IMG/VR virus record: IMGVR_UViG_3300023278_002549
Span: 1 to 42,645 of that record
Strand: one strand, 5' to 3'
DNA length: 42,645 nt
From: a virus
The position numbers and the translations under genes are program-made. Positions within the stretch are counted from its first letter, which is position 1, and each line of letters starts with the position of its first letter. The notes under the pieces are model-generated. The model saw only the letters and a program-made list of their open reading frames with translations. It was not told the DNA's origin and did no database searches. Shown piece by piece: positions 1,904 to 42,589 of the stretch.

Positions 1904-1952
1904 ATTTTTTACCTCAAAAAAGGTCTAAAACACACTTTTTGGGATGGCCACA

Positions 1953-1977
1953 AAAAACACCAAAAGCGGGTGTTTTT
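1953..1977. terminator. A/T-flanked hairpin, candidate terminator
   Basis: AAAAACACC (1953-1961) and GGTGTTTTT (1969-1977) form a perfect 9-bp stem with a 7-base loop and T-runs at the end in both directions. It lies in the gene-free stretch between the primase-helicase and the 87-residue gene. It could stop leftward transcription from the primase gene or be part of the origin. The stem is AT-rich, so it is a moderate terminator at best. Confidence 0.35.
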
Positions 1978-2116
1978 CAGCCCTTTTGAAAAAGTCGTTT
2001 TTCAGCCCGAAAGTTACTGACACCTTTTTCCGCTTTTTTGGTTTTTTGGCTTTTTAGGGAAAAGGCAAAAATGGCTTTTTTGCTCAGATGCCATTAAAAC
2101 CCCAAATGGCCATTTC

Positions 2117-2346
2117 TGTGACGCCTCCGAGGGGGGTGAGACAGCAGTTTGTAGGGAGTATGGACGCACACACACTTTACTGACAGGGGTGCGTCTTATG
2201 TCCTGTGTGAAAGGATAAATGTATATAGATAGGCGTCACAGGCGTCACACCCCTGTTTTTAATGCCTAAGTATATGTATTGGTGTAGCTATTCGTGTGAC
2301 GCCTCTGACGAAAACAGGCGTCACAGAGGCGTCACAAGGCGTCACA
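2117..2346. other. Iteron array, candidate replication origin
   Basis: Five direct copies of GGCGTCACA start at 2232, 2241, 2317, 2328 and 2338. Two inverted copies (TGTGACGCC) start at 2117 and 2295. The copies at 2295-2304 and 2316-2325 form a perfect 10-bp inverted repeat with an 11-base spacer. A second inverted repeat, GACGCAC (2163-2169) with GTGCGTC (2189-2195), and an AT-rich stretch near 2215-2230 lie between. The last iteron overlaps the primase-helicase stop codon. The remainder of the roughly 440-bp gene-free region 1904-2341 holds A/T-rich runs and short inverted repeats but no gene that I can support. Iterons beside a primase-helicase are the classic layout of a phage or plasmid origin. 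No experiment supports this here. Confidence 0.55.
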
Positions 2347-4693
2347 CCTCCGCGCTGTTTTCTGGTGTTGTTTTTGACCAAAATCTAGCCTGTTTTTGGC
2401 CTTCACGCTTTCGCACGTTTTTGAAGCCCATTTTGCGTAAAACCGCGCTTAGTCTTTTTGCGTTTTGCATGTCTGCTTTTTCTCCGCCTATCGGGCCGGC
2501 AGTATCGAAAAATTCGTTAGTAGTGTACGCATCTTTTTCATTTTCTTTTTTGCTCATCCACTCTTCGATTTTTTCTTGCCAAGGGTCCATTTGCATTCTT
2601 TGCTCTTGTTCTTCGATAGCCATTTGCTCTACGGCTTTGTCTTCAAGCCATAATGGCTCGCCAAGCTCAAAGCATGTTTTCGCCTCGGCAAGTAATTGAT
2701 CTCTGGCTTGCTCTAGCGCTTCGATGTCACACGCCCCAACACTTACTGGCCAAAACCTCCTATTGCCCGAAGAGTCTCTCAGGTATTCATGCTCATTAGT
2801 CGAGCCGATAAAAATACTTTGACGGGGGAAATCCTCGACATGCTTACCATAGGCCTGTCGTATTCTGTCTTCTTTTGTGGAAATGAAACTTTTTACTTTT
2901 TCAAGGTCAGCTTTGTTTAAGCCAGCAAGCTCGCTTAACTCTACCGCCCACTTGCCCGCAATTTTCATTACTGAATCTTTGTCATTCACGTCAATTTTGG
3001 AGTCAGTAAACCACGGTGTCGTGGCGAGAGTTTCTATGCACGTTGATTTTCTCATACCTTGGGGCCCTTGAAGAATTAAGACGTAGTCAAACTTTATCGC
3101 CGGCTTGTAAATCCGAGCGACCATAGCTGTTAGCACTTTTCGCCCTACAGCTTGCACATACTCCTTCGGGCCTACCGCCTTGGTGTAATTAAAAAGCCAG
3201 TTATCAAGCCTGGGCACCCCATCCCATTCAAGTGTGTCTAAATAATCTCGTACAGGATGAAATTTATTAGTGTCTGAGATTACTTTAATCGCATCCTCAA
3301 TTCGGTCAGTGCTCGGCTCTAGTTCATAAAACGTAGCCATCCATAGTTTTATACGAGAGACTAAAGAGTCGGTTACTTGTTTGCCGTTTGCTATACTCAC
3401 CCCAAGTAAATCAAAATCCGAACCAAACGTGCGAGCGCAAGTAAACTCATTGCGCACAAAAATCTTTTCGCCTATAGCTTTCCGCAGAATAAGCTGCACG
3501 TTCTTTAAAGTATTTTTTGGTTTATTGCCGTAGCGCGGGTCGGAACGCTCTATCTGACTTTGCCAATGGGCTAAACTTTTTATCTCGCCTTCTTGCTCCC
3601 TAGCCGCCTCATCCGAAAAGCTTGGTGTTGGCACCCCGCTCTCGCCAATATCTTCACCGTGGGATACTTCAAAATCTCTAGCTGCATCTTTCTCACTCAC
3701 CGCTTTATCAAGGCAATACTTTTTTATCCATGTAGCGGCTCTTTGCCGATTTTCGCTTTTGGTGTGGCGAAAGCCCACTTCGCCTAAATAATTATCCGTG
3801 TCGGTTAGCACCGAGAGAATTTCAATCTCGCTAAGACCAGCTTGGCTCATGGCTAAGCAAGCACCAAAAAGCGATGCGCTCTTATCTCCCTCGCAGCCTT
3901 CTCCGCTTATGATAAGCCCCACCATACGCGCAGAAACTTGCGAGCCGACTAAATCCACATCGACAAATTTAAAATCACTGAGTGCCGCAGAGCCGTTAAG
4001 GTGAGACTTCTCTTTTTTGACTCCCACCAATTTTGAAACATCAAGCACTGGTAGGTCTCCAAGCTTCGAGGGCTCGAATTCTTTTCGCCATTTATAAATC
4101 GCTCCCGTATCGGCATGGGCGCTTGGAGGCAAAACCGTTTGTTGGCCCTCGCCTAGTAAGCTTATTTCCCAAGCGGCACGCATCCTGTAGCCCGCCTTTA
4201 ACTCCGCATCGTTTAAATGCTTCCTATCGTTTGGTGTGGGCGCTCCCGAGCTTGGCATCAAAACTTTAACTTGACGCGGTGCTTGCGCAAGCCTGCGCTG
4301 ATTTTGAGCCCCAATTGTGGCGCAGTAGATGTGCATTGACCCATTGCCTCTCCCACTAAGCACCTGTAACGCGGTGCTAAAGCTAAATTCAGGCAGTAGC
4401 TTTTTCAAAGTTGACAGCATTTCTTCCCGGTCTATCCTGTCCCCGCCCTTTACGTCGCAATCAATTACAGCTAAAAATTTGTCCTTCCCCAAAGGCGTAG
4501 CGCTCCCAAGGCGCACTCCCAAATTCATGCCAGGCTTGAAGGTGCTCTTTAGCTTTTCCCAGTTAGCTCTTGGAAGCTTCGACCAATTGTTCTCAAAAGG
4601 CGCTTTGGATTTTGGGCGTATCCAATGAAGGGACATCTTGGTGTGGTATTTCTTTGCAGCGTTAATTATTTCTTTGTCTTGGGACTGTAGCAT
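2342..4693 (-). CDS. Prim-pol / VirE-family primase-helicase
   Basis: A 783-residue replication protein that should prime synthesis and unwind DNA at the phage origin. The N-terminal part looks like a bifunctional primase-polymerase domain: the metal-binding pair is in VIDCD (residues 76-80) and the histidine in GNGSMHIY (116-123). The C-terminal half is a VirE/D5-like superfamily 3-type helicase. It has Walker A GPQGMRKST at 543-551, a Walker-B-like WAVELSEL at 582-589, a sensor-like FIGSTNE near 628 and an arginine-bearing GNRRFWPV near 643. AAAGG precedes the ATG by nine bases. The gene starts five bp after the HTH gene, so both share the leftward promoter. Its stop codon lies inside an iteron of the candidate origin. 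Confidence 0.88.
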   Translation of the reverse strand: MLQSQDKEIINAAKKYHTKMSLHWIRPKSKAPFENNWSKLPRANWEKLKSTFKPGMNLGVRLGSATPLGKDKFLAVIDCDVKGGDRIDREEMLSTLKKLLPEFSFSTALQVLSGRGNGSMHIYCATIGAQNQRRLAQAPRQVKVLMPSSGAPTPNDRKHLNDAELKAGYRMRAAWEISLLGEGQQTVLPPSAHADTGAIYKWRKEFEPSKLGDLPVLDVSKLVGVKKEKSHLNGSAALSDFKFVDVDLVGSQVSARMVGLIISGEGCEGDKSASLFGACLAMSQAGLSEIEILSVLTDTDNYLGEVGFRHTKSENRQRAATWIKKYCLDKAVSEKDAARDFEVSHGEDIGESGVPTPSFSDEAAREQEGEIKSLAHWQSQIERSDPRYGNKPKNTLKNVQLILRKAIGEKIFVRNEFTCARTFGSDFDLLGVSIANGKQVTDSLVSRIKLWMATFYELEPSTDRIEDAIKVISDTNKFHPVRDYLDTLEWDGVPRLDNWLFNYTKAVGPKEYVQAVGRKVLTAMVARIYKPAIKFDYVLILQGPQGMRKSTCIETLATTPWFTDSKIDVNDKDSVMKIAGKWAVELSELAGLNKADLEKVKSFISTKEDRIRQAYGKHVEDFPRQSIFIGSTNEHEYLRDSSGNRRFWPVSVGACDIEALEQARDQLLAEAKTCFELGEPLWLEDKAVEQMAIEEQEQRMQMDPWQEKIEEWMSKKENEKDAYTTNEFFDTAGPIGGEKADMQNAKRLSAVLRKMGFKNVRKREGQKQARFWSKTTPENSAEV

Positions 4694-4698
4694 TTTCG

Positions 4699-4893
4699 TT
4701 AAACCTTTCGTTTCATCTTCAACAGGCGGAGGGCTTTCACCTTTCCCTTTGAAAGTCTTTCAATCTCTAAAATTCGCTCCACACTGGGCAATCTTTCACC
4801 CCGAGCCCAACTTCTTATCGCGTGTGGTGTACAATTGAGTTTCATGGCAAGCGACATTGCGCCTTCTTTTTTTATGTATTCGTAAAGTGTCAT
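4699..4893 (-). CDS. YdaS/Cro-like helix-turn-helix protein
   Basis: A 64-residue DNA-binding protein. The helix-turn-helix spans roughly residues 12-45: LAMKLNCTPHAIRSWARGER with LPSVERILEIERLSKGKV after it, the pattern of YdaS-type Cro/antitoxin proteins. It is the first gene of the leftward arm and divergent from the helicase gene. It is the natural candidate for a regulator of the switch region 4894-5043. No ribosome-binding site is visible before the ATG at 4893 (A/T run only). Translation may be leaderless, or may start at the internal ATG preceded by GAAGG, but that shorter form would lose the first helix. Confidence 0.7.
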   Translation of the reverse strand: MTLYEYIKKEGAMSLAMKLNCTPHAIRSWARGERLPSVERILEIERLSKGKVKALRLLKMKRKV

Positions 4894-11208: not shown

Positions 11209-12032
11209 GTACGGATGAAAAAACAATTCTTAAAAAATATGAACAACTTAAGCGATTATCTTCCAGAGTCTTTGGTAAGCAAGCAGGAGAAGATGTTGCT
11301 CAAGAGGCTATTATTTCGTTTTTGGAAGGGCGAGGCATTAGACAAAGTAACCGTTTTGCCATTATTGACGCTGCTAGAAAACGTCGCAGCGGAACTTACC
11401 GTTACAGAGATGGAGTTAATGAGCCTTCACAGCCGAATGTCTGGATGCCCGACACCAATTTTGTTTATGACGACGGACTCGGACCAATTAATGAGAGCAC
11501 GGATAGATATAGAGAAGACTTATTTACTTTTATTCGACTTGTGTCACATCTTAAGAAGCCGAAGCTAATTCAAATGGTATTATTACATGAAAGTTACGAG
11601 TGGACTCTTCTTGAAATATCTAGATTCTCTGGAGTTACTGAGTCTCGAATCAGTCAGCAAATTACCCTTTCGAAAAAGCTCCTTAAAAAGATCGCTATAC
11701 ATGAAGGCATACTTACGAGCGAACAAGGAGGAGGTGAACAAGAAAGCTCGGGAATATTACCACCTGAAAATAAAAGTATCGCCCATTGCTTTGAAGAACC
11801 GTTCGAAGAATTGGCGGAAATTCAAAGAACGGAAAATGAAAGAAAATCCCAATTGGCAACGAGAGCGTTCTTTAAAATACCGAAAACCTTATTCGGAATT
11901 ACCCGAGAAAACGAAACAAAAGATCCGAAACAAAAGCCGAGAATGGCAAAAATTAAATTGGAAAGAGAGAGTTTTATATGCCCGAAAATGGAGAAGACGA
12001 CAATCAACTTTTGGCCTCAGAAAAGCCGTTAA
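11205..12032 (+). CDS. Sigma-factor-like protein with an overlapped C-terminal tail
   Basis: The first 165 of 275 residues look like a small sigma factor. A region-2-like helix is seen at FGKQAGEDVAQEAIISFLEG (23-42), and a region-4 helix-turn-helix at LLEISRFSGVTESRISQQ (about 134-151), reminiscent of FliA-type SRVSQ recognition helices. It could redirect host RNA polymerase to phage promoters, the obvious target being the leftward late arm. The remaining 110 residues are unstructured in composition and are overlapped out of frame by a basic-protein gene from 11701, so the working protein may be shorter or this tail may be a by-product. The start overlaps the polymerase stop (ATGA). Confidence 0.6.
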   Translation: MSTDEKTILKKYEQLKRLSSRVFGKQAGEDVAQEAIISFLEGRGIRQSNRFAIIDAARKRRSGTYRYRDGVNEPSQPNVWMPDTNFVYDDGLGPINESTDRYREDLFTFIRLVSHLKKPKLIQMVLLHESYEWTLLEISRFSGVTESRISQQITLSKKLLKKIAIHEGILTSEQGGGEQESSGILPPENKSIAHCFEEPFEELAEIQRTENERKSQLATRAFFKIPKTLFGITRENETKDPKQKPRMAKIKLERESFICPKMEKTTINFWPQKSR

Positions 12033-17959: not shown

Positions 17960-18091
17960 TTAATCTACCTTAACATCTTCTTTAACGGCGTCGCCAATTA
18001 CAACGGTGCCATCCTTATTAATTGTGAATAAGTAGGGTGAGTTTAATGTAACCGAACCCGGCTTTAACTTATTCTCCTCATCATGCGCCAC
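17960..18091 (-). CDS. Small protein after the fibre gene, 43 aa, GTG start
   Basis: The frame MAHDEENKLKPGSVTLNSPY... starts with GTG at 18091, overlapping the last 11 bp of the fibre gene, and ends with TAA at 17960. AAGGGA lies about ten bases upstream. It fills the interval between the fibre and the 64-residue gene. The chain is beta-rich (LFTINKDGTVVIGDAV). No family recognised. Confidence 0.4.
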   Translation of the reverse strand: MAHDEENKLKPGSVTLNSPYLFTINKDGTVVIGDAVKEDVKVD

Positions 18092-20966
18092 CTTTTATAA
18101 TTCCCTTTTCAACCAAGGCGGCTCTTATTTCATTCACAAGAGTCACCATTGCATCTGCTTGAGCTGCTGTTGTAAACCCATACGGAGCGACATTTGTCGC
18201 TGCCGTAGTGGCTACAGCATCCTGAGCGGCCCCTGACCTTTGAACGACAGGCGTTGAATTATGAAATGCCAGCTTTTGGCTAACATCCGTCGCTATAATT
18301 GTCCCAGTTGTAGTTCCAAGCTTTACGTTCTTAGCCTCAGCAATCGTTACTTCTTCGCTGAATAAAGACTTTCCGTCTATGTGCAAAGAGTCATACGTGT
18401 AGCTTGTGGGAGTAACCGTAGAACCAGCGGCCCATGTGCTGTCATCCGTAAATGATGGCGTTGCAGAGTCAACAAAGGTTCCCGTTGTAGTATTAAGTGT
18501 TCTCGTTGCAGATATCCCTGTTGGGAATGTGCATGAGAAGAAAACGTCATAAGTAATGTTTGGAAGTCCGGGAGAAGTTCCCACAGTCCAAGCTGTATTA
18601 TCATCTAAGACAGATAAGCTTGTGGTTGTTTTATAGTCTGTGGCGTTTCTTACGATGAAATAAGAAGTGGGAGCTAACCCAGTTGGTTGAGTCCATGAAA
18701 TTAAAACATCTTGATTGTTTGAGAAGTCTATCCAGGCGCCTGTTCCATTTAAGGTCAGGGCAAGTGGAGTTATGCTTTGGGCGGTGTCAGTTACATACAA
18801 TGCCCAAATTTGATAAGCCGGAGGAGTGTCTACGTTAGGGTCATAGCCGGTTCCAACTTGCTCGTTTGCTGTCCCAGCAATTACGTCATAGACGGTTGAT
18901 GCCGGTTCGGTAAATGTTGTTGTTGCCGGAGTCGCTGCAAAAATATCTGTTCCGTTTATCGTTTGCTTGGAATACGCTTCATAATTTTTATTTCCAGACG
19001 CAAAAGCATACCCACCTGTCGCAAGTATTGCACCGATAACAGCATTACAGCTTGTAATTAAAATTGGTGTGACGGTGTATGAACCAACATGGACACTGGA
19101 ATCAGGTGCAGTTTTTTGAAATCCGAACAGTCCGTTTTCAGTAACTCGTCCACGCTCTAATGCAAATGTTTTTATCACCATTGCTTGGAAGTCTGTGGTG
19201 CCTAGAAAATCCGTTCCGGGACTTGTGCCAGAATTTCCGCTTATAAGCCACGGATTGAAAGGCAATCCGCCAATTCTGAAAATACCACCAGCGTTAACAT
19301 CCCCTGATACATCTAATTTGTATTGCGGATTTGTAACGCTAATCCCTAAATTTCCGCTAACAGCAATGTTACCTTGGTCTGAAGACTGAACTCTTGCCGA
19401 AGCGCCTATTACTAATGTTCCACTTACATTACTCGTGTTACAACCTGTAGAGGTTCCAATTGAGATATTGTCTACCCCAGTTCCATAATTTACACCGCTG
19501 TTAAGCCCAATTCCGATATTAAAACCGCCTGTTGTCACACTATTATTCGAACCAGACCCAATTCCAATATTTCCACGGCCTGTGGTCATAGATGGGCTGC
19601 TATTATCTCCTATAGCAATACAGCTATATCCAGTTGTAATGAGTTGAGCAGCAGTAGAACCTATAATTACGTTATTGGAGCCATTACCGGGGGAAGTGTT
19701 TGTTATGTCCCTTCCTGCGCTATTTCCAATGATAACATTGTTGCTTAGAAAACCCGTTGTGTTCTTCGCTGCCTCATATCCCATAATTACATTGAAACCT
19801 CCACCAATGAGGCCAGTGGTTATTGCGGCCCTATGACCAATAAGAATATTACTAACTCCGCTTGTAAGAACGCCAGCGTTGATACTAAATAAATTGTTTC
19901 CTGTATCGTTTGCGACTTGGTTACGAATTTCTTTTACGTTCCAACGGCTACTTGTAGTGTTGTAAATAAATTCTGATGTAGCCCCACTCACGATAGTTAA
20001 ATCTTTACCTGATTCTAACTCGAAACGATTTGCTGCCGTCGCACCAGCGTTTTGATTTGCTATAATAAGACCGCCAGCACCAAGGTTTCTTAATGTAACC
20101 CTATAATTTCCACTCGCAGGAGCAACCATGCCCTGAATGGTTTTTGTTGCGGCCCCAGTAAATTCTAAAAATGTAGAGGCGACTGCTTGAGCGGTTATAG
20201 TGCCGACTGTGGCAATTGTTGTTTGAGTGTTTGGAAGTGCAGGGCCGCCGCGAGATAATGCGAGTGTGGCTTCTCCGCCAAAAGCCCCGGCATTATTAAA
20301 CTGCAAGTCACCACTAGAGCCCGCAGGCGTACCACCACCACCACTACCATTAGCAGCAACTGTTATTCTGCCCTTAGCGTCAACAGTTATATTTGCTGAA
20401 GTGTAAGCGCCAGCAGTTACGCCACTGTTTGATAAGGTTGCAGCAAATGTCCCCGTACCGCTTCCAGTAACGTCACCAGTAAGAGTTATAAGTTGATCGC
20501 CTGTATTTGTACCAGAAAGATTTGAAGCAGAAATAGCACCTGAAAAAGTAGCTCCAGTTAATAGCGCATATCCTGCTAGCGTTCCTGATAATGCAGAAAT
20601 CGCACGCGCATTTGTAAAATAAAGATTTGAGCCTTCAGAAATATTTGACGTGGATTTCGCCGCAAGTGCAGTATCAAAGCGCGCTTGCGTGTAATAAAGA
20701 TTAGAGCCTTCAGATAAATTCGAGGTGCTCTTTGCAGCGAAAGCACTATCAAAACGCCCCTGAGTGTAATAAAGATTCCCGCCTTCAGTTAAGTTTGAAG
20801 TATTTTTTGCAGAAAAAGCAGTATCGAAACGGGCTTGTGTGTAATAAAGATTTGAGCCTTCTGTGACTAAACTTGTAGAGTAATCTCCGGACTGCGCAAC
20901 AACCGCACCAATTCTACCGAAAACGGATTGAACGGGTACAACAACTTTTTTTGATGAATTAGCCAC
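18081..20966 (-). CDS. Long tail fibre protein, 961 aa
   Basis: The N-terminus holds SVFGRIGAVVAQSGDYS, a frequent start motif of phage fibres. Four tandem 25-residue repeats (EGSNLYYTQARFDTAFAAKS type, residues about 35-130) and the GDVTGSGTG...TVDAKGRIT module follow. A long block of GxNxxIG repeats (about 365-540) looks like the left-handed coil of trimeric adhesins. A region with fibronectin-III-like sequence (about 690-870) and a C-terminal coiled coil ending EIRAALVEKGIIKGGA complete it. It should form trimers that bind the host surface. No intramolecular chaperone is evident. The 196-bp gap upstream contains a candidate structured RNA. Confidence 0.85.
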   Translation of the reverse strand: MANSSKKVVVPVQSVFGRIGAVVAQSGDYSTSLVTEGSNLYYTQARFDTAFSAKNTSNLTEGGNLYYTQGRFDSAFAAKSTSNLSEGSNLYYTQARFDTALAAKSTSNISEGSNLYFTNARAISALSGTLAGYALLTGATFSGAISASNLSGTNTGDQLITLTGDVTGSGTGTFAATLSNSGVTAGAYTSANITVDAKGRITVAANGSGGGGTPAGSSGDLQFNNAGAFGGEATLALSRGGPALPNTQTTIATVGTITAQAVASTFLEFTGAATKTIQGMVAPASGNYRVTLRNLGAGGLIIANQNAGATAANRFELESGKDLTIVSGATSEFIYNTTSSRWNVKEIRNQVANDTGNNLFSINAGVLTSGVSNILIGHRAAITTGLIGGGFNVIMGYEAAKNTTGFLSNNVIIGNSAGRDITNTSPGNGSNNVIIGSTAAQLITTGYSCIAIGDNSSPSMTTGRGNIGIGSGSNNSVTTGGFNIGIGLNSGVNYGTGVDNISIGTSTGCNTSNVSGTLVIGASARVQSSDQGNIAVSGNLGISVTNPQYKLDVSGDVNAGGIFRIGGLPFNPWLISGNSGTSPGTDFLGTTDFQAMVIKTFALERGRVTENGLFGFQKTAPDSSVHVGSYTVTPILITSCNAVIGAILATGGYAFASGNKNYEAYSKQTINGTDIFAATPATTTFTEPASTVYDVIAGTANEQVGTGYDPNVDTPPAYQIWALYVTDTAQSITPLALTLNGTGAWIDFSNNQDVLISWTQPTGLAPTSYFIVRNATDYKTTTSLSVLDDNTAWTVGTSPGLPNITYDVFFSCTFPTGISATRTLNTTTGTFVDSATPSFTDDSTWAAGSTVTPTSYTYDSLHIDGKSLFSEEVTIAEAKNVKLGTTTGTIIATDVSQKLAFHNSTPVVQRSGAAQDAVATTAATNVAPYGFTTAAQADAMVTLVNEIRAALVEKGIIKGGA
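20600..20860 (-). repeat. Tandem 75-bp repeats in the fibre gene
   Basis: Four units with a 75-bp period encode the 25-residue EGSNLYYTQARFD repeat. The word GTAATAAAGA recurs at 20691, 20766 and 20841, with a diverged unit near 20614. Units have diverged at third positions, so they are not a recent duplication. Unequal recombination here could change fibre shaft length. Confidence 0.75.
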
Positions 20967-38946: not shown

Positions 38947-40881
38947 CTACCAGTAACTAGACTTTTTATTAGGTATCCCAGTGAAAGAATCCGGGGTTTT
39001 TACCCGGACTTTTTCATCTTTGACCGCCAAAAGAGCAACACTCGGCACTTTTTTATTTACAGCGCCAAGTCCGACTTGAGCAGACATCACTTCCCAGTTT
39101 TCTAATTTGAATCTATCCATACCAATGGCAGCGGCAGCGACACGGCAAAGTATGTTGCAATCTAGAACTTCGTTTCTGTCCCGTACCTTTTCCCAAAAAT
39201 GCTTTGTGAAGCCGTTTTTTATTCGCACACTCAATTGCTCGGCAGTGAGTTGTTTGAAGTAGTCATCGCCGTACTGAGGGAAGTGACAATATCCCGGCGG
39301 GAATTCCTCCCCATCTAAAGCCTTGGGAAGTTTAAGCCATGCGTACAGCTCGCTTTTAACTAAGCTCACACCCACGGGCCATATTTTAAATCCTCTAGGT
39401 ATTCGTTTGCCTCTAAAATTTACGTCCACAACGCTCGGTGCGCCCAGCATAATAGGTGAGGACTCAACACCCTTAGTCGCTATCACACGCGACATTGAGT
39501 GACGCCTACACCAATTGTAGACCGCTTGAGTGTTGTAGCCTGAGTCTACCGCTAACATCCGAATAGGAATTTGAGCCCCAAGCTCATGCGGAAAAAATTC
39601 ATTTAGAAGCTCGTCAAGCTTAAGCCAAGCTCCGGCGTCAGAGTTAGAAGTGTCACCGATGAAAACCCGGTAATCCACAGACCAGCTTTCTTTACCCACA
39701 CCATAAGCTTTTATCTCAACTTCGATGCGGTCTTTTTGCACGTCCGCTCCTGCAACTAAAATCATTCCTTGCTTAGGGATAATGCCAATTGGGTAGCTTT
39801 CTCGGCACTCATAGAGACGCTCCCAGTCCGGTGCATCCCCGCGATCTTTCCATGTTTCACCCAGCACGGTGTTCACAAAGCCGCGAAGTCTTTCTTGAAC
39901 TTTTGCAGAGTCTAACCAAATTTTTACCGCGTCAGCCCAGCTAAACCAGCCAACAGGTGAGTAGAGCGAGTTGATATGGAAGCTTGCCGTCTTGCCGCCA
40001 TTAGCGCCCGGCTCTTTTGCGATCCACTTCGCGCCGTTTGCTTCGTCGAGCATCCAAGTCTTATGGTGCTCGGGGATTTGTTTTGCGCACCCGGCACATT
40101 CTAGCGTGGGCCTTTTAGGATTATCTTTGTACTTAATTCTTTTCCATTCGATTAACTGCAGCTCTTTACAAAAAGGACATGGTACATAGTATTGCCTTTG
40201 ATCGCCGGAGAGATATTCCTTTTCAATCTTGGAGCGATTTTGCATTGTAGGCGTTGAGATTAAAAACATTTTCCTACGTGAGAAAGTTCTTGTGCGAGCT
40301 TTCGCCAAAAGTATCGGATCGCCTTCACCATCGAGGTCACTCGGATAAGCATCGATTTCGTCGAGCAGTAAAAATCTTGCAGAAAGAGAGCGAAGTCCTG
40401 TAGCTGAGTTTGCTCCCGTTAACACCAAAATCCCACCTGGGAATTCTTTTGATAAAATTGTATTTCCAGAATCACGCGAGCGAGCCTCTTTAACTTTTTT
40501 ATAAAGCCTATCGCTTGTATCTATGAGTTGATCGATGCGCTGTCTGGAATACCTCTTAGCCATATCCACAGTCGGCTGAACTGCGAGTATAGGCCCACTT
40601 GTAATATCGATTATGTATCCTATCCAATTTGTTGCTGCCTCAGTGAATCCAAGTTGGGCGCCTTTCATCACTACCACTTCCTCAATGGGGCTAGAGGGAG
40701 AGAGGCATTTAAAAACTTCTCTCATATAGGGCACACGACTTGTACGCCATGGCCCAGGCTCCGCACTCGCTGCACTGGAAAGGATGCGGTATTTATCAGA
40801 CCACTCGTCAATATCCATTAAAGGATCGGGAGCGATACCAGCTAGAAATGCGTCTAGATAAACTTTACTCTTCGCTGCCAT
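38947..40881 (-). CDS. Terminase large subunit (lambda gpA family)
   Basis: A 644-residue packaging motor and cos nuclease. The ATPase holds a Walker-A-like KGAQLGFT (73-80) and Walker B FLLLDEID (170-177), the usual gpA/GpA-like forms. A zinc-binding set follows at Cys235, 238, 262 and 265 (CPFC, CAGC). The nuclease domain has VAGADVQKDRIEVEI (Asp380) and LAVDSGYNT (Asp446). It should cut at the cos site proposed at the window ends. It overlaps the small subunit by 17 bp. Confidence 0.95.
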   Translation of the reverse strand: MAAKSKVYLDAFLAGIAPDPLMDIDEWSDKYRILSSAASAEPGPWRTSRVPYMREVFKCLSPSSPIEEVVVMKGAQLGFTEAATNWIGYIIDITSGPILAVQPTVDMAKRYSRQRIDQLIDTSDRLYKKVKEARSRDSGNTILSKEFPGGILVLTGANSATGLRSLSARFLLLDEIDAYPSDLDGEGDPILLAKARTRTFSRRKMFLISTPTMQNRSKIEKEYLSGDQRQYYVPCPFCKELQLIEWKRIKYKDNPKRPTLECAGCAKQIPEHHKTWMLDEANGAKWIAKEPGANGGKTASFHINSLYSPVGWFSWADAVKIWLDSAKVQERLRGFVNTVLGETWKDRGDAPDWERLYECRESYPIGIIPKQGMILVAGADVQKDRIEVEIKAYGVGKESWSVDYRVFIGDTSNSDAGAWLKLDELLNEFFPHELGAQIPIRMLAVDSGYNTQAVYNWCRRHSMSRVIATKGVESSPIMLGAPSVVDVNFRGKRIPRGFKIWPVGVSLVKSELYAWLKLPKALDGEEFPPGYCHFPQYGDDYFKQLTAEQLSVRIKNGFTKHFWEKVRDRNEVLDCNILCRVAAAAIGMDRFKLENWEVMSAQVGLGAVNKKVPSVALLAVKDEKVRVKTPDSFTGIPNKKSSYW

Positions 40882-41365
40882 GAGATAAAATTTCCAATTG
40901 TTTAAAGATCTCTGCTTTTAATTTTGTATGAACTTTAAATTCGTCATTCTCCGCCGCTAATTCCGCTGCTAATCTGTCCGGGATGTTTAGCATCCCGTCT
41001 CTAACTGAGCGAGCGATATTAAACCAAGTGGTTTTCACTTCGTCAGCGTTTACGAGTTTACCCATACGCTCCTCGTAATCGAGCTGCAGGATTTTGGCTG
41101 TTAAAGTTTCTCTAACTGTTTTTGCTTTCGCAAAATTATTTATATTAGAATCTTGAGCACCGGGGGATGTGTCGGGAATATTTCTTAGATTACTCAAATC
41201 CCTATTATCTTCCCAAGCTTGGGACTGGGTGTCCCAATTGATTTTGGGATGGCCTTGCTTCATCTTAGTAGTTTTAATACGCCCGCCGACAATGGCGTCT
41301 TGGACAGCCTTACGGTGAATCTTTTTCCTCTTAGCAAATTCTAAAATAGAAATCATTTCAGCCAT
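40865..41365 (-). CDS. Terminase small subunit (Nu1-like)
   Basis: A 166-residue DNA-binding packaging protein. The N-terminal winged-helix (ISILEFAKRKKIHRKAVQDA, GGRIKTT) should bind cosB. A linker and a C-terminal domain (RETLTAKILQLDYEERMGKL, DEVKTTWFNIARSVRDGML) bind the large subunit. The C-terminal half is typical of the Nu1-like families. It is about 1.3 kb from the right end. Confidence 0.82.
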   Translation of the reverse strand: MAEMISILEFAKRKKIHRKAVQDAIVGGRIKTTKMKQGHPKINWDTQSQAWEDNRDLSNLRNIPDTSPGAQDSNINNFAKAKTVRETLTAKILQLDYEERMGKLVNADEVKTTWFNIARSVRDGMLNIPDRLAAELAAENDEFKVHTKLKAEIFKQLEILSHGSEE

Positions 41366-41368
41366 AAA

Positions 41369-42589
41369 TTATTTTTTCTTTTTCTTGACTATTACTTTCG
41401 AAGTAATCTTCTTAGCTTTTTTTCCTGTAAAGATTTCCCAGCGTTTAATAATCACTGAGCAATAGTGCGGGTCTAATTCCATCATGAAACATTTGCGGTT
41501 AGTTTTTTCGCAAGCGATAAGTGTGGAGCCTGAGCCGCCGAAGAGATCTAATACAGTCAACGCAGGTATCCTTTCAAAAAACCATTCTATTAATTTTATA
41601 GGCTTCATTGTTGGGTGTGTCTTTTTTGCCCCATCATCATTTTTATTGTGCCCGAAACAACCAGCCCAAGTTATTCTAGCAATTTCCTGTTTCCTTTTTT
41701 TCTTAGACCAGCACATTTCGAAAGACGAGCCGTACATTTTATCTAAATTCTCATTATCATTTCTCTTATCCCACATTATCCATGACCCTTTATTAGGGTC
41801 GTAGAACTTTGTCATATAATTAGCGCCAAAAAATAAAACCTCGTCTGCTAAATTTAAAAGAAATGAAGGGTCAAATTGTTTAGAGTCATTAGCCACGCGC
41901 TCAAATTTATTAGCCACGCGCTTTGATTTTAAAGAAGTGTAATCGGTATTCAAATCAATCCCATAAGGCGGGTCAGTAAAAACCATATCTACCTTCTCAC
42001 CATTCATTAATCTCTCGACCGTTTGCAAATCCGTAGAGTCGCCGCACATAAGCCGGTGCTTGCCAAGCTGATATACATCACCAAGTTTCACACCCAAAAT
42101 ATTTTGAGGAACTTCGGGAATTAAATCCGCATCTTTATTATTTTCTGAATCATCGTCTGGCAAAAGCTCTTGCAATTCTTTAGAAGTAAATCCGACAAGA
42201 TCAACGTCGTATCCTTCAAGAAGTAAATCCGCTAACTCCTCGCCTAAAATCTTTTCATCCCATCCCGCATTCAGCGCCAATTTATTATCCGCAAGAATGT
42301 AAGCGCGTTTTTGTAAATCAGTTAAGTGGTCAAGAACAATTGTGGGGACTTCTTTTAGATTTAATTTTTTCGCAGCTTCTAATCTTCCATGCCCAGCGAT
42401 AACACCATGCTTAGAGTCCACAAGAATCGGATTAGTAAAACCAAATTCCAAAATGCTAGCCGCAATTTGATCGACCTGCTCGTCACTGTGAGTGCGCGCA
42501 TTTTTTTCGTAGCCAATAAGCGCACTGATAGGCGTCAGAATAATTTTTTCAGAAATTTTTAGAGATTTTGTTGCTGGTGAATTGCGCAT
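41369..42589 (-). CDS. ParB-domain DNA adenine methyltransferase
   Basis: A 406-residue two-domain protein. Residues 15-130 are a ParB/Srx-like domain (ALIGYEKNARTHSDEQVDQI, then GHGRLEAAKKL near 66-76). Residues 165-395 are a DNA methyltransferase with DPPY at 206-209 and FGGSGST at 350-356, in the order of beta-class enzymes; DPPY suggests N6-adenine. It should methylate phage DNA, either to escape restriction or to mark cos. It is the first gene after the cos end in the terminase direction. The 56 bp before its start hold the ATG leader and a TAGGC...GCCTA inverted repeat. Confidence 0.9.
   Translation of the reverse strand: MRNSPATKSLKISEKIILTPISALIGYEKNARTHSDEQVDQIAASILEFGFTNPILVDSKHGVIAGHGRLEAAKKLNLKEVPTIVLDHLTDLQKRAYILADNKLALNAGWDEKILGEELADLLLEGYDVDLVGFTSKELQELLPDDDSENNKDADLIPEVPQNILGVKLGDVYQLGKHRLMCGDSTDLQTVERLMNGEKVDMVFTDPPYGIDLNTDYTSLKSKRVANKFERVANDSKQFDPSFLLNLADEVLFFGANYMTKFYDPNKGSWIMWDKRNDNENLDKMYGSSFEMCWSKKKRKQEIARITWAGCFGHNKNDDGAKKTHPTMKPIKLIEWFFERIPALTVLDLFGGSGSTLIACEKTNRKCFMMELDPHYCSVIIKRWEIFTGKKAKKITSKVIVKKKKK

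Follow-up and report, generated by a model that had tools for sequence, protein, structure and literature searches.

Results and Discussion

An Iteron Array at the 3′ End of a Phage Primase-Helicase Gene

The DNA analysed here, referred to below as the window, is a virus record of 42,645 bases, of a record class without end repeats where linear. It carries the genes of a contractile-tailed phage, including those for terminase, portal, a fused head protease/major head protein, sheath, and tape measure, and its replication genes encode an SNF2-type helicase, a DUF2800 nuclease, a Gp2.5/Enc34-type ssDNA-binding protein, and a family A polymerase. A 75-b tandem repeat of 3.3 copies (20618-20861) lies near the start of a 961-aa structural gene (18081-20966), and next to the terminase genes lies a gene (41369-42589) for a 406-aa protein that joins a ParB-like part at its N-terminus to a C-terminal DNA methyltransferase. 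The gene of interest encodes a 783-aa protein that matches Pfam PF09250 (Prim-Pol) and PF05272 (VapE-like helicase) as well as PHROG 1313/256 (Table 1).

An earlier note on this DNA had described five direct and two inverted copies of a nine-base word across 1904-2346. The count is correct, with seven exact copies of GGCGTCACA, five on the plus strand and two on the minus strand, but all of them lie within 2117-2346 and none in 1904-2116. An exact-match search of both strands found no copy elsewhere in the 42.6-kb window, so the word is not scattered through the genome; shuffles gave a mean of 0.14 copies and a maximum of 1, and none of 100 reached 7. All seven copies share an extension to the 10-mer AGGCGTCACA, and only three 10-mers outside the array come within one mismatch of it (at 39498, 42530, and 42598). 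The array is also the sole 8-mer cluster of at least five copies per 450 b in the window. When the whole window was dinucleotide-shuffled 100 times, the best cluster held three copies in 89 shuffles, four in 10, and five in one.

Read from the stop codon of the gene, the array consists of three direct copies (spaced 10 and 11 b) followed by one inverted copy. A moderately AT-rich stretch of 45 b separates these from two abutting copies, and the last inverted copy lies about 100 b further on. The tandem copies are 9, 11, and 10 b apart, approximately one helical turn. As the note had stated, one copy overlaps the primase stop codon (TGA, 2342-2344), and the array sits in the largest gene-free stretch, which at 438 b (1904-2341) is the longest gap in a gene list drawn from the open reading frames. 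The 10-bp perfect inverted repeat described there is in fact longer, 13 bp at 2295-2307/2324-2336, and a second one of 10 bp is found at 2295-2304/2316-2325. The AT excess within the array is small (0.70 versus 0.68), making it hardly more AT-rich than the gene. The adjoining stretch 1904-2116 contains runs of A and of T, many of them ∼8-11 b apart; it is possibly bent DNA beside an origin, and it may be part of one. The GC-skew profile that the note had proposed as a check turned out to be uninformative and was dropped as origin evidence, because skew here tracks gene orientation, with turning points close to 5 kb and 15 kb.

Table 1. Coordinates of the primase-helicase gene, the iterons, and neighbouring features in the window
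Feature	Position	Strand	Basis
Initiator candidate, 783 aa: Prim-Pol (residues 19-209), VapE-like helicase (485-700), C-terminal winged helix	2342-4693	-	Pfam, PHROG, fold
C-terminal winged helix, residues ∼705-774, proposed iteron reader	2372-2581	-	AlphaFold; covariation in relatives
Small Cro/YdaS-like HTH gene, just upstream of the primase-helicase gene, same strand	4699-4893	-	Pfam, PHROG
Iteron copy 1, inverted relative to most copies, furthest from the gene	2117-2125	-	Exact word match
Iteron copy 2	2232-2240	+	Exact word match
Iteron copy 3, abuts copy 2	2241-2249	+	Exact word match
Iteron copy 4, inverted; 13-bp perfect inverted repeat with copy 6	2295-2303	-	
Iteron copy 5	2317-2325	+	Exact word match
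Iteron copy 6	2328-2336	+	Exact word match
Iteron copy 7, over the primase-helicase stop codon	2338-2346	+	
Moderately AT-rich spacer, candidate melting site (∼20/30 A/T)	2200-2231	.	Weak
Moderately AT-rich spacer between two iteron groups, candidate melting site (∼20/30 A/T)	2250-2294	.	Weak
Gene-free, A/T-tract-rich stretch without iterons, adjoins the array	1904-2116	.	ORF list, word count

A Predicted Winged Helix at the C-Terminus of the Primase-Helicase

An AlphaFold model of residues 371-783 (413 aa, 25 relatives) has a mean pLDDT of 90, and a model of the winged-helix domain alone has a pLDDT of 80. The C-terminal fold is predicted to run from a helix through a short strand and a short helix to a long recognition helix (742-754) and a two-strand wing (757-774, with strands 757-764 and 767-774). 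The best PDB match of the model in Foldseek is PriRep1 with dsDNA (7pds; TM 0.77-0.81 on the query), whose listed chains are 24-26% identical to the query, and hmmsearch to 7pds gives an E value of 9e-98. The matches carry the labels PriRep1 and "similar to D. nodosus vapE". We take PriRep1 to be the initiator of a staphylococcal pathogenicity island (SaPI). The winged helix alone gave no Foldseek match at E ≤ 0.001; VIA-align returned mostly winged-helix proteins for it, with Z scores of 5-6.6 that are too low to identify a relative, and the P4 alpha domain is absent from those matches.

Arrays Recur behind the Helicase Gene in Other Phages

We inspected the stretch behind the VapE-type gene in ten named phage records. 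Most of them have a word cluster there, and the words differ, with TGGTCACCCC in Marinobacter phage PS3, TGTTGCAGT in Paenibacillus phage Bob, and CTCACCCTT in Rhodobacter phage RcAqua. The KA2-1 and ep3 primases have no array within 700 b. The main survey took 160 loci, picked by protein alone and at most 80 per scan, from several hundred VapE loci. For each, both strands were scanned between 30 b upstream of the stop codon and 1.5 kb beyond it, and the score was the copy number of the most frequent 8-mer within 450 b; proteins were clustered by single link at 70% identity, and the best locus of each cluster was counted. The main count scored 169 of 173 loci. A downstream array of at least five 8-mer copies is present at 61 of 166 protein-found loci and in 20 of 43 protein clusters, about half of the clusters having no array by this measure. 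Gene bodies scored in the same way gave none (0 of 164). A control stretch 1.2-1.8 kb downstream, for which 4 of 160 loci were left out for having too little downstream DNA, reached five copies in 2 of 145, both in the group with displaced arrays described below.

The arrays start within 100 nt of the stop codon in 17 of 22 cases and between -5 and +27 of it in 16, and in three arrays, that of the window included, a copy lies over the stop codon at the identical place. TGT occurs inside the consensus word in 16 of the 22, as compared with 4.8 by letter-shuffling, and 19 of 21 arrays contain an AT-rich bit (p 0.0001); the array of L216, one of the 22, resembles a coding repeat and was left out of this test and of the Mantel test below. 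Pseudomonas phage Haddon (L059) and a group of Pseudomonas prophages have the array ∼0.4 kb downstream, behind one small open reading frame, and these displaced arrays are mostly at nearly equal distance from the gene.

Among 154 loci fetched later, 34 were new (<97%), and 21 of these were non-redundant. Six of the 21 have at least five copies, and a prior forecast that at least 40% would have arrays failed. With at least four copies the count is 11 of 21, versus 0 of 21 for gene bodies.

Words Covary with a Few Winged-Helix Residues

Across distant proteins, C-terminal similarity does not correlate with word similarity (Mantel r 0.01, p 0.44; r -0.12, p 0.89 after thinning of relatives). Within two groups of relatives, single bases of the word do track single residues. 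We defined the covariation classes after inspecting these data and wrote down predictions before fetching the new loci. In the Pseudomonas prophage group, whose words include TGTCCCAC and TGTCCTAC, 64 of 79 members have at least six sites; identical rows were merged. At base 6 of the word, C occurs with Arg in 36 of 36 cases, and Lys accompanies T or A in 7 of 7, the residue being located in the wing two positions after a conserved Trp (W+2). Loci of this group without a clear base 6 have Lys at W+2 in 17 of 19 cases, and the column ranks first of 238 variable columns in the last 430 residues. For base 8 the linked residue is the one just before the invariant Arg of the long helix, where C pairs with Met in 57 of 58 cases and T with Ile in 4 of 4. 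This column ranks first of 259 variable columns over the same 430 residues, and the word change at base 8 is counted four times on a tree of the helicase part. The top column for base 1 likewise falls in the C-terminal domain.

In the Rhodobacterales group, 23 of 36 members could be classed. GTCACC words go with Gln at W+4 of the wing (4 of 4) and other words with Arg or Lys (18 of 18), so that Gln accompanies A, and Arg/Lys accompanies C; the column has the top rank among 304 variable ones, and two changes are seen on the tree. Pairings of Gln with A and of Arg with G are classical contacts. The words change across all copies of an array while the array spacing stays similar.

The 7 of the 21 new loci that were scorable all followed the W+2 Arg/Lys rule. 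For the helix residue, Met-C was seen in 3 of 3, Gln-G in 1 of 1, and Ile-T in only 1 of 2, and one new locus has Arg with A, which was outside the written predictions. We propose a partial code in which W+2 Arg would specify C and Lys T or a relaxed base, the helix residue before the invariant Arg would specify C as Met, mostly T as Ile, and A or G as Gln, and W+4 would specify A as Gln and C as Arg or Lys. The covariation was observed in groups of other phages, and the window's own group lies outside it. TGTGAC words, which were found in none of the new loci, are limited among the VapE loci to the window, L039, and L159, all with Asn at W+2 and Arg at W+4, a pattern noted after the fact. On the model of the fold and the covariation in relatives, the winged helix of the helicase is the proposed iteron reader in the window phage as well.

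The Word in Other Viral Contigs

A nucleotide search of phages and a single-protein search of viral contigs each returned no relative. A scan of viral contigs for the direct-repeat word gave 26 stretches, mostly in-frame repeats inside genes, and a scan for the inverted pair gave 25, in which the intergenic clusters are those of L039, L056, and L034. L039 and L056 are one phage (99.99% identical); found by the word alone, it has a six-copy array over the stop codon of a VapE helicase that is 36% identical to that of the window. L159, found by protein, carries the word TGTGACAC. The closest full-length relatives of the window (L149, L069, and L070) have other words or no array.

The window's word also stands behind a primase of a different family (phrog_35358) in L014. 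There it occurs between the primase gene and the terminase genes, flanking a TATATATATATA stretch (3300-3552). This may possibly be a second initiator family with the same word; we did not count it as support because L014 was picked by the word. In L034, a 20.5-kb record with no VapE match, TGTGACGCC-type words surround an integrase gene and a tRNA-like end (11600-11970) and are perhaps integrase arm sites that use the window's word. Because these two records carry it, the word alone is no proof of an origin.

A Candidate Replication Origin Bound by the Primase-Helicase

The recurrence of the array and the covariation in relatives support the suggestion of the earlier note that this is an origin recognised by the phage's own initiator. 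We consider it very probable, from sequence, structural model, and analogy, that the array is the phage's replication origin and is bound by its VapE-type primase-helicase, with the C-terminal winged helix as the proposed reader. The note had named two initiator candidates, this protein and the HTH protein. We favour the former because the word is absent near the start of the HTH gene, arrays recur behind the helicase family, and words covary with its C-terminal residues; the explanation works without the HTH gene, which is not needed. The seven sites, grouped at the 3′ end of the helicase's own gene, would be bound by the winged helix, and the bound initiator would assemble, probably as rings. 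DNA between or beside the iteron groups could then be melted and unwound, and the primase domain would lay the first primers for the family A polymerase.

An improbable alternative is an origin like that of plasmid pRN1, where the helicase would bind a large stem-loop behind its gene, with the repeats serving only as stem arms. The array strand folds far better than its shuffles (z -5.4), but much of this folding is due to the inverted iterons, and relatives keep many copies in mixed order and with changing words. PMC4234260 describes a requirement for a downstream stem-loop in pRN1 and suggests the same for phage BIP-1, behind its DNA primase gene, calling BIP-1 and BPP-1 nearly identical. 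However, in Bordetella phage BPP-1 (L229) an A/T-rich stretch ∼0.5 kb downstream has copies of the 8-mer ACGAGGCA on either side, four in all. At L229:608-711, ∼0.5 kb behind the DNA primase gene, words of the TTTGCCTCGT type form two inverted pairs around the A/T-rich stretch.

We give very little credence to the array being the sites of another phage regulator, such as the HTH protein, that controls transcription past the primase gene. The HTH gene does lie directly upstream on the same strand, but the word is absent near its start and at any other gene, promoter-like or terminator-like sites in 1600-2700 are not beyond chance, and arrays lie behind the helicase gene in phages with different neighbours. 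Recombination or packaging sites, that is, integrase arm sites as L034 might suggest or terminase-binding repeats of a cos/pac region as the arrays close before terminase genes in L039, L014, and Caulobacter phage Jess A might, are just as remote a prospect, since the 29 window ORFs scanned with PHROGs include no integrase, the window's terminase genes (38947-41365) are >3 kb from the array even on a circular genome, and the covariation is with helicase residues.

If the array is indeed an origin bound by the primase-helicase, the origin of a common phage type could be read from sequence, just behind the primase-helicase gene, and whose DNA is replicated by whom (phage, satellite, or hybrid) would come down to the match of winged helix and word. 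It would also correct the view of this origin layout as peculiar to phage satellites and supply naturally occurring protein-DNA pairs for working out a recognition code. We also lean, with less assurance, toward a wider reading in which the VapE-type helicases of phages, paired with the iterons behind their genes, make up a single large family of initiators and origins, the word having drifted repeatedly in concert across all copies, with its bases partly readable from a few winged-helix residues; the window would be one member, and the PICI origins a branch rather than unique. Iteron origins of VapE phages are undescribed in the literature we searched by title and abstract, a search with most subscription journals outside it. 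The helicase-iteron covariation in these phages, likewise undescribed there, is the newest part.

Comparison with Known Initiator-Origin Systems

The layout itself is of a known kind, and by analogy the window is best read as a PICI-type rep-ori in a full tailed phage. According to PMC7581432, SaPI Rep helicases recognise iterons directly downstream of their own gene by a C-terminal domain. The window resembles the SaPI/PICI rep-ori (PriRep1, 7pds; SaPI5 primase-helicase, 7ola) in its homologous helicase, with the TM score and E value given above, in the iterons directly 3′ of the initiator gene, and in a fused primase and a C-terminal DNA-binding domain, the latter predicted here. Unlike a PICI element, which is a satellite without a full virion gene set, the window encodes a phage that has head, tail, and polymerase genes of its own, from terminase and portal to head protease/major head, sheath, and tape measure. 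Its word is also different and its AT-rich core weak: two iteron sets flank an AT-rich region in SaPI/PICI origins, and in the window the groups are present but the largest gap between them is 52% AT, versus 54% in the gene.

In plasmid pRN1, a single protein, ORF904, likewise combines a Prim-Pol, a helicase, and a winged helix at the C-terminus, and the origin lies 3′ of the gene (PMC4234260); unlike the window, this archaeal plasmid has a single stem-loop, not iterons. The same source describes the alpha protein of satellite phage P4 as a primase-helicase with a winged helix that binds origin repeats. The primase is of the Toprim type in P4, in contrast to the Prim-Pol (PF09250) of the window. 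The P4 ori word presumably differs from the window's word. Finally, the SCCmec helicase Cch2 recognises short direct repeats downstream of its gene through a C-terminal domain (PMC7581432), as is proposed for the window, but it belongs to a different helicase family, has three copies of 5-nt repeats, and has no fused Prim-Pol.
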